Origin: an uncultured bacterium | GTDB lineage: Bacteria > Cyanobacteriota > Vampirovibrionia > Gastranaerophilales > Gastranaerophilaceae | Direction of reading: 5' to 3' | NCBI GenBank assembly: GCA_949296355.1 | Contig: CASFPS010000008.1 | Span: 62,001-126,000 of the forward strand | DNA: 64,000 nucleotides | Shown here: positions 17,407 to 60,621 of the stretch, piece by piece | Numbering within the stretch: position 1 is the first letter of the stretch | Layout of the letters: each line of letters starts with the position of its first letter | The notes under the pieces: model-generated | Told to the model about the DNA's origin: nothing | Seen by the model: the letters and a program-made list of their open reading frames with translations, nothing else | The model's database searches: none | Made by a program: the position numbers and the translations under genes

Positions 17407-18606
17407 TTAACTCTGCAACTGAGCACGTTTTGCATTCTCATACCGTTTTTTCGTAAAATAATTAGTCATTCCTGCTACAAAGAAGCCCATTACTCCTATG
17501 GAGAATATGTACGGAAGTCCGGAAATTAAGACTTTTTGTTTTACCAGAGATTTGTACTCATTTTCAACTGTAGTTTTTCTTTCTTTTGCAAGTTTTTGAG
17601 CTAAATCTCCCAGTTCATCAAATTTTGGGACGCTTGAATCTTTGCCCAGAATATCCTTGCATTTACCCATTTTGTGCAAAAGTTTTCTGAATCCTTTTTC
17701 GACAAGTTCGCTTCCTGTAATAACATATAGAGCAACGAGCGGAAATCTTGTTGCAGTTTCTTTGAAGTTTTCTTTACCTCTGTCGGCGGAGGCGCCGAAA
17801 TATCCGGCACCGCCTACTAGCACGCAGGTTGTTAACTGCCCTTTGCTTAAACATAACTTTCCGTTCTGACTGTTAAAATCCATATTTGTATACTTGTTAA
17901 AGAAATTTTTGGCTTTTGGCGAATTTTTGAAGAGCTTTGAGCCCGGAGCAACAATAAACTCTGATATATGTTGAAGGATTTTAGAATCTTTGCCTTTTGT
18001 AGCAAGAAGTCCTGCAAGCCCTAAGCATCCGGCGTACAATCCTGCAGCCAGTCCAATATGCCTTTGTGCACTCTTTTTAACTTTCTCCTGATGCTTTTTA
18101 TCCTCTTGCGTTTCTTCAAGTGAAGCAATATTTTTAAAATCACTTTTCTTAAAGAGTTTTAAAGTCATCAAATTTTTTATATAATTTAGTGAAAACTCTG
18201 TTAAAGGTATTGCCATAGCTGCCAAAGCAATTGCAGCCTTTACCGGAATAACACGCTTATTATTTTTTCCGCCTTTTTCTAATAATTCAACACCTGTAGT
18301 TGCAACTTCTTTCTTTAAATCGTTATTCAAACCTTTTGAGAAAACTTTTCTTGCGACTCGCTCTCCTAAAATCGTCGGAACAAAATAGATTAAAGCTTCT
18401 TCCGAGGTTTCAAGAAAAGTGTTTTCCGTTAAGTCTGCAAGGCTTCTTGAAAAAACAACTTTCGGAATCAGGCAGGTCGTTGCATCCTGAATAAATCTGG
18501 ACGTAGAAAGTCCTGACGCCTGCTCCTGATGACGTACAAATTTTGCGGCAGGCTTCAATGTTTTCGGCAAAGTATTAATTAAAATTTTGTTGTTATTTGA
18601 TGACAT
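17407..18606 (-). CDS. Multi-pass membrane protein of unknown function under an apparent Trp attenuator
   Basis: This 399-aa protein has about five hydrophobic helices (VKAAIALAAMAIPLTEF, HIGLAAGLYAGCLGLAGLLA, LTTCVLVGGAGYFGAS, FPLVALYVITG, YIFSIGVMGFFVAGMTNYF). It opens with a soluble segment in which DATTCLIPKVVFSRSLADL and ALIYFVPTILGERVARKVF stand out. It distantly resembles the 35899 protein in layout. It contains no tryptophan at all. The 245-nt leader carries a consensus promoter, a palindromic operator candidate and a WWRW leader peptide. This suggests control by tryptophan and makes a Trp-linked transporter or envelope role possible but unproven. AGGA lies 9 bases before the ATG. Confidence 0.75.
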   Translation of the reverse strand: MSSNNNKILINTLPKTLKPAAKFVRHQEQASGLSTSRFIQDATTCLIPKVVFSRSLADLTENTFLETSEEALIYFVPTILGERVARKVFSKGLNNDLKKEVATTGVELLEKGGKNNKRVIPVKAAIALAAMAIPLTEFSLNYIKNLMTLKLFKKSDFKNIASLEETQEDKKHQEKVKKSAQRHIGLAAGLYAGCLGLAGLLATKGKDSKILQHISEFIVAPGSKLFKNSPKAKNFFNKYTNMDFNSQNGKLCLSKGQLTTCVLVGGAGYFGASADRGKENFKETATRFPLVALYVITGSELVEKGFRKLLHKMGKCKDILGKDSSVPKFDELGDLAQKLAKERKTTVENEYKSLVKQKVLISGLPYIFSIGVMGFFVAGMTNYFTKKRYENAKRAQLQS

Positions 18607-18623
18607 AATTCACATTCCTAAAA

Positions 18624-18821
18624 CTTGTAAAGACTAAAAATTGCTTATCCTGAAAGGTTTTGTTTACAAATTTTAACTTTTACAAGCCGGAAAATGAGCA
18701 GACAAAACCTTAAGGCTTTAACTGCCCGATGTAAAAATCCCAATACGTGACTACATGCCGGCAGTTAAGCTAACCAGCGCCACCAAAATAAATTGAGATT
18801 TTTTAAAACTTGTTTGTTCAT
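18624..18821 (-). promoter_or_regulatory. Putative tryptophan attenuator (leader RNA with alternative stems)
   Basis: Downstream of the WWRW leader peptide three pairings can be drawn. Stem 1 is TTAACTGCC (18718-18726) with 18760-18768, extended outward, and its 5' arm on the minus strand includes the leader's stop codon. Stem 2 is a perfect 10-bp match, 18702-18711 with 18654-18663. Stem 3 is 8 bp, 18679-18686 with 18624-18631, ending just before the gene's ribosome site. Stems 2 and 3 interleave and stem 1 abuts stem 2, so they would compete. A classical U-rich terminator is not obvious; control might instead act on translation. Confidence 0.6.
18765..18821 (-). CDS. Trp-rich leader peptide (18 aa)
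   Basis: The frame reads MNKQVLKNLNLFWWRWLA and stops. Three of the last six residues are Trp, the signature of leader peptides of trp-type attenuators (E. coli TrpL has adjacent Trp codons followed by Arg). AGGG lies about 7 bases before the ATG, and the promoter at 18857-18885 lies just upstream. The stop codon falls in the 5' arm of the first hairpin, the geometry needed for ribosome stalling to change folding. The downstream gene is not a known trp gene. Confidence 0.7.
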   Translation of the reverse strand: MNKQVLKNLNLFWWRWLA

Positions 18822-18828
18822 AATTTCC

Positions 18829-18854
18829 CTTTGTATCGATATATCGATACAAAG
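18829..18854. promoter_or_regulatory. 26-bp perfect palindrome, operator candidate
   Basis: CTTTGTATCGATA is followed directly by its exact complement. It sits at the expected transcription start of the minus-strand Trp-leader transcript. A dimeric repressor site is the simplest reading; I do not recognise the regulator, and it does not match the E. coli TrpR operator sequence. Confidence 0.7.
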
Positions 18855-18856
18855 TT

Positions 18857-18885
18857 ATAATAAAACAGTTTTGTCTTTATGTCAA
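18857..18885 (-). promoter_or_regulatory. Consensus sigma-70 promoter of the Trp-leader transcript
   Basis: On the minus strand TTGACA (18880-18885) and TATTAT (18857-18862) are separated by exactly 17 bp. Start of transcription would fall within the 18829-18854 palindrome. Confidence 0.75.
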
Positions 18886-60292: not shown

Positions 60293-60520
60293 ATGCAGGG
60301 ACGCACATTTTTCAGAGTAATGCTGGATATAATTTTGAATAACGCTCTAATAAGAGCTATAGCTTCCTTTGTAAATTTTTGTAACGAATTACGGTATTAT
60401 AACAGAAAAGAGCTAAAGTTTTTGAAAAAAATGCCGATAAATAATATTGTAAAAGAAAATTATTACAAAAAAAGGTTTGTCTTTAACAGTATCACCAGCA
60501 ACAGAACCGGGTCTAAATAA
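60293..60520 (+). CDS. Small basic protein of unknown function
   Basis: This 75-aa Lys/Asn/Arg-rich protein is predicted to be helical at the start (MQGRTFFRVMLDIILNNALIRAIASFVNF) and basic at the end. AGAGA precedes the ATG. Given its context in the 57.4-61.2 kb run it may be part of the same system, but it could also be spurious; the preceding repeat could have produced the frame. Confidence 0.45.
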   Translation: MQGRTFFRVMLDIILNNALIRAIASFVNFCNELRYYNRKELKFLKKMPINNIVKENYYKKRFVFNSITSNRTGSK

Positions 60521-60621
60521 TATGTTAACAATTGTAACAAACAATATCAAAAACAGGCAATTATTTAAGTTCACATGTTTTATAATACATGTAGGCTTAG
60601 ATCGTGTAGGAGTAAAAGCTT

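Follow-up and report, generated by a model that had tools for sequence, protein, structure and literature searches.

At 17407..18606 on the minus strand lies a gene for a 399-aa helical membrane protein without a single tryptophan (Trp), and ahead of it stands a short reading frame with two adjacent Trp codons; we were interested whether this arrangement is a Trp attenuator and what it would control in front of such a gene. The window (the whole stretch of 64,000 nucleotides that was analysed) lies on contig C8 of a Gastranaerophilales MAG with a genome of 2.09 Mb and 99% completeness, and the relatives named below are also Gastranaerophilales MAGs, among them Adamsella, Gastranaerophilus and Avigastranaerophilus. 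Along the minus strand a promoter is followed by a palindrome, a leader reading frame with its ribosome site, a strongly folding RNA stretch of about 160 nt and the Trp-free gene. The TTGACA-N17-TATTAT promoter, the 26-bp palindrome, the leader with its ribosome site and the Trp-free gene named in an earlier sequence-only reading were all found there. The −35 box TTGACA (18880..18885, minus strand) is kept in relatives, and the −10 box TATTAT (18857..18862, minus strand), reached over a 17-nt spacer, corresponds to TATACT or TATAAT in them.

The leader MNKQVLKNLNLFWWRWLA (18765..18821, minus strand; 18 codons, ribosome-binding site AAAGGGA) carries the tandem Trp codons, the predicted sensor, at 18780..18785 (minus strand) and a third Trp, W16, and it alone encodes WW among the 481 ATG reading frames of 10–30 codons in the window. 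Its region aligned at the DNA level in 48 of 65 genomes of the genus. The protein is encoded at 64 named loci; in four of these the contig ends at or close to the start of the gene, and a WW leader preceded the 17407-family gene at each of the remaining 60, which have enough upstream sequence. WW was also kept in 45 of 47 sampled orthologs, mostly from other genera and with protein identities as low as about 50%; the remaining two have the leader SWRSL with one Trp. A conserved leader reading frame, a ribosome-binding site and tandem codons for the sensed amino acid, as expected of a ribosome-mediated attenuator, are hence present, and the conservation of the leader is, judged from these alignments, far beyond chance. 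Of the WWRW codons emphasized earlier, the tandem WW is conserved and the third Trp is not, the genus consensus being LNRxWWRGLV. Outside WW the leader differs in other genera (WWRL or WWxLxxxTGxxCWR), and WWRGLV, WWCS and WWWLANSASGFCWR are further variants across genera. In other genera (L195-L216) the leader extends beyond the 1:2 hairpin described below, and an extra Trp codon stands at its end, within CWR or SWR ahead of the stop. Gene neighbours vary between loci, which indicates that the leader moves with its gene, and the two are kept together in many genera without shared synteny.

The leader RNA (254 nt) folds with −70.4 kcal/mol (z = −5.5; none of 200 shuffles was as good). On the minus strand, segment A (18792..18803), made up of leader codons 5′ of WW, pairs with A′ (18733..18744) according to the fold and to covariation in relatives. 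Segment 2 (TTAACTGCC; 18760..18768) overlaps the leader stop and has as its partner either the leader segment 1 or segment 3 (GGGCAGTTAAAGCC; 18714..18727), which itself may pair with segment 2 or with segment 4 (GGTTTTGTCTGCTC; 18696..18709). The 3:4 helix is the counterpart of a terminator hairpin and is followed by ATTTTCC, without a full U-tract, and segment 5 (ACAAAACC; 18656..18663) is able to pair with segment 4 (GGTTTTGT). In the long-form alignment of the window's genus (21 sequences), the OFF set (A:A′, 1:2 and 3:4) had 90.7% of cells paired with 26 two-sided changes and the ON set (2:3 and 4:5) had 95.5% with 14, and none of 500 shuffles was as high in either case; these shuffles ignore relatedness, and sliding the partners by 1–3 columns, which keeps it, lowered the values strongly wherever a set was supported. 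The two-sided changes of the ON set fall in 2:3 only, and the 4:5 pairing (94.6% of cells paired in the long form, zero two-sided changes) is suggestive only. The short-form alignment comprised 16 sequences, in which the helices A:A′ and CAAUAUAAAC:GUUUAUAUUG together gave 96% paired cells with 17 two-sided changes, and 2:3 was without covariation support in this subclade. For other genera, 1:2 and 3:4 reached 96.8% with 33 two-sided changes, and 2:3 reached 94.9% with 16. The sequence-only reading had pointed to the Trp codons and the stems as the parts whose loss in relatives would speak against attenuation; WW is kept and the stems covary, with 1:2, 2:3 and 3:4 as mutually exclusive alternatives, the pattern expected of an attenuator. 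Rfam searches of the window and the leader (Trp leader, T-box and other models) gave nothing at the gathering score, and the same search of six relatives gave tRNA and sub-threshold noise only.

The effect of a translating ribosome was modelled by masking its footprint out of the folding, with the ribosome size and equilibrium folding as assumptions. For the 21 long-form sequences, the mean P(2:3) was 0.00 both for the free RNA and for a ribosome at the stop, and it rose to 0.93 or 0.91 when the ribosome occupied the first or second Trp codon, the computed gain being seen in 21/21; P(3:4) dropped at the same time from 0.77 to 0.21 or 0.28, respectively. When the footprint was moved codon by codon through 26 leaders, P(2:3) was highest on the tandem Trp codons, with 0.90 and 0.89, and had fallen to 0.14 three codons past the first of them. 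Among 31 terminator-type sequences, P(3:4) was 0.93 at the stop and fell by more than 0.1 upon stalling in 23, with a rise in none and no clear switch in this simple model for eight. Computed stalling at the cognate codons thus leads to the antiterminator and a ribosome at the stop to 3:4, as in known attenuators. Therefore, from the anatomy of the leader, the covariation and the codon-specific switch, attenuation at Trp codons is the best explanation, and the earlier attenuator reading is largely borne out by a WW that is near-invariant across the order, competing stems that covary and a modelled stall that switches the helices. We consider it very probable that this Trp auxotroph has a Trp-free membrane protein under the control of a ribosome-mediated Trp attenuator. 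With plentiful Trp-tRNA, the ribosome at the leader stop would cover segment 2 and 3:4 would form (OFF); with Trp-tRNA in short supply, a ribosome stalled on the two Trp codons would cover segments A and 1, so that 2:3 forms and 3:4 is blocked (ON). We infer that expression depends on Trp in this direction.

The step on which this switch acts appears to differ between lineages. Most other genera have at 3:4 a classical intrinsic terminator with a U-run, e.g. AGCCTGTTTC..GAAGCAGGCTATTTTTT, which would act as such. The U-tract is reduced in the window's genus, and neither the window nor its nearest relatives L073 and L074 has an intrinsic terminator with a U-run at 3:4; the description of a complete-looking Trp attenuator consequently holds for the WW leader and the competing stems, and not for a canonical U-tract behind the 3:4 hairpin of the window. 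In the short-form subclade of this genus, the covarying helix noted above reaches up to and into the Shine-Dalgarno sequence and may hide it as the alternative helix. Folding of the whole UTR at equilibrium gave no consistent change of Shine-Dalgarno accessibility in the long form, which is that of the window, and several TGGAGA-type short forms (L102, L111, L112 and L135) opened on stalling. For the window's form, weak termination, translation initiation or both, via segment 5 and a module adjoining the Shine-Dalgarno sequence, are candidate outputs. This module (18619..18690, minus strand) is related to copies elsewhere in the genome, namely at 60520-60582 on the plus strand of the window and at G000 C5:21511-21573 (pattern TTGTAA..AGGCAATTTT..TTYACA.GTTTTA), and weaker copies are located directly upstream of other genes of the genome. 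The module may serve as a promoter or protein site or form an RNA structure, and its copies possibly represent a shared promoter or regulator site; RNAalifold returned no pair for a consensus structure of the module.

The perfect palindrome CTTTGTATCGATATATCGATACAAAG (26 bp; 18829..18854, minus strand) coincides with the predicted start site and was seen in the window's genus only. It is a possible operator or 5′ hairpin. There is one site in this genome and nearly always one per genome in the genus, and the perfect palindrome measures 12 to 42 bp in most of the genus sequences compared, the 42 bp being reached among L033, L022, L019 and L014. The outer arms vary among lineages yet remain complementary, and in some sequences the −10 box lies inside the palindrome, which is therefore not simply an RNA hairpin; both an operator and arm-matching by template switching are possible origins of such a pattern. 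A regulon operator was rejected, there being a single site per genome save isolated 3-mismatch matches in two genomes. TrpR, for whose like a search had been suggested, found no match in this genome, in a search that matched 2/14 control genomes including E. coli, and was therefore rejected as reader of the palindrome. As the ribosome site of the leader overlaps the 3′ arm (18821-18835, minus strand), a 5′ hairpin could also limit translation of the leader. No paper on the palindrome was found.

The regulated protein had no sequence match in Pfam, NCBIfam or the PDB, and its AlphaFold model, nearly all-helical and confident (pLDDT 87.9, pTM 0.85), gave no significant fold match in PDB or viral libraries. 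Hydropathy suggests roughly three clear membrane segments, with as many as three further, weaker ones. That the gene is no trp enzyme and encodes no Trp, as stated before, was confirmed with 0 Trp in 399 aa and no match in the two family databases. Since the mean Trp content of the window's proteins is 0.69% and 2/22 reading frames of at least 350 aa have 0 Trp, a single protein without Trp would hardly be remarkable. Among 47 orthologs, 45 of them behind a WW leader, there are 3 Trp in 19,121 residues (0.02%), compared to 39 in 5,751 residues (0.68%) of 13 leaderless paralogs; as these sequences are related and not independent, no P value is given for this contrast, which holds across lineages at about 50% identity. 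Other residue frequencies are mostly alike in both groups, with differences for His and Cys. The leaderless paralog family (L224-L236; about 420-460 aa, normal Trp content) occurs in many genomes of the order, and orthologs and paralogs together were found in 156/286 order genomes. A few complete genomes of the genus are without the gene, which is accordingly dispensable. The near-absence of Trp in the orthologs fits selection for synthesis under Trp starvation: the protein would be made during starvation and would have been cleared of Trp so that its synthesis is then possible.

TrpA was absent from all 63 genomes searched in the genus (control positive in 14/14) and over the cut-off in 42/286 genomes of the order. 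In this genome no TrpB was over the cut-off, PLP-fold relatives being the only matches, and TrpS is present; no WW leader was found on trpS. What follows the leader in relatives, a comparison proposed by the sequence-only reading, is the same gene family in many genera and a trp operon in one sister-genus genome, L253 (148-310), where MTKNFKNNLFWWCLY is the leader and a terminator accompanies the same helices. A gene for Trp synthesis thus stands downstream in L253 alone and not here. An attenuator-model search gave strong matches only ahead of family orthologs and of the L253 trp operon, the sole match with E < 1e-5 away from a family gene; the L253 genome is not among the order genomes listed with a family match. 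Weaker matches away from the gene (E > 1e-4) had no convincing WW leader. As a general feature of trp operons the WW leader was rejected, being found at 1/20 TrpA loci examined, several of which end early.

These comparisons also bear on other explanations of the locus. The leader could be a relic of a lost trp operon, left by accident ahead of an unrelated gene, and the absence of TrpA from the genus as well as the L253 operon would agree with this. Leader and gene nevertheless stay together in many genera despite different neighbours, the stems show covariation, and the protein contains far less Trp than its leaderless paralogs, which makes an accidental relic extremely improbable. This suggestion of the earlier reading is thus unsupported for the present state, as leader and gene keep together across many genera without shared synteny; descent of the leader from a trp-operon leader is possible, because one sister genome has it on a trp operon.

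A different sensor would be an arrest peptide or a general translation-stress sensor of the TnaC or antibiotic-leader type, in which the WWR nascent chain would stall the ribosome upon binding of a ligand and not upon a shortage of charged Trp-tRNA. TnaC is likewise Trp-dependent, and many leaders of the genus have a near-constant RGLV after WW, which would be in line with such a peptide. Apart from WW, however, the peptide is entirely different from genus to genus (WWRGLV, WWCS, WWRL, WWWLANSASGFCWR), and this speaks against a specific arrest peptide. The formation of 2:3 is moreover favoured most by a stall on the Trp codons, and we regard this sensor as very improbable. The leader peptide or the released attenuator RNA might also act in trans, with the cis effect being secondary, as reported for peTrpL of Sinorhizobium meliloti (PMC7298713). 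This precedent and the conserved WW would be in line with a trans-acting product, but the rest of the peptide changes fast between genera and the leader is strictly linked to a single downstream gene, so that we think it very improbable.

In trpL of E. coli and other proteobacteria, tandem Trp codons lie a few codons before the stop, segment 2 is at the stop, and 1:2, 2:3 and 3:4 exclude each other. The locus described here shares the short leader, the tandem Trp near the stop, segment 2 at the stop and the exclusive 1:2/2:3/3:4 helices, as well as, in other genera of the order, a 3:4 terminator with a U-run. It differs by a Trp-free membrane protein instead of a trp gene downstream, by an organism without TrpA and TrpB, by the window's 3:4 without a full U-tract, by the extra A:A′ helix 5′ of the Trp codons and by the lack of an Rfam model match. 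In translation attenuators of the ermC type, stalling in the leader frees a sequestered Shine-Dalgarno sequence, and the short-form helix covering the start of this sequence is comparable; here, however, the sensor is Trp codons and not an antibiotic-arrested peptide, and the window's form is without a consistent change of Shine-Dalgarno accessibility. With regard to the protein, 'Down-Trp' selection in Chlamydia has been described for low-Trp proteins in Trp starvation (PMC3937554), and biosynthetic enzymes are biased towards low content of their cognate residue (PMC4209129). As in Chlamydia, a protein needed in Trp shortage would here be Trp-depleted; unlike there, almost no Trp is left, the paralogs used for comparison contain Trp, and the depletion coincides with a Trp-codon attenuator and concerns a family without a match.

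The links of the protein to Trp are its regulation and its composition only. Most likely it relieves Trp shortage by uptake or salvage, or adapts the envelope to the shortage; acquisition of Trp would be the simplest guess in an auxotroph, and a role in the envelope or in dormancy is equally compatible with the evidence. No paper was found on Trp attenuation in this lineage, and the data suggest a dedicated, undescribed Trp-starvation response across the order. More tentatively, and with somewhat less than even confidence, we propose that the 17407 family founds a new membrane-protein fold for acquisition of Trp, indole or Trp peptides, or for survival without Trp, in Trp-auxotrophic gut bacteria, and that it is controlled by a stand-alone Trp attenuator of ancient origin, which within one genus has changed its output from transcription termination to translation control. 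For a protein family without a homolog of known function, the attenuator would tell when it is made, namely in Trp shortage, and the composition that it must be made then. A trp-type attenuator would in this case have outlived the trp operon and serve an auxotroph, and the genera of the order would form a natural series of different outputs driven by a common sensor, the two Trp codons. Competition for Trp by a poorly cultured gut lineage would thereby become testable.
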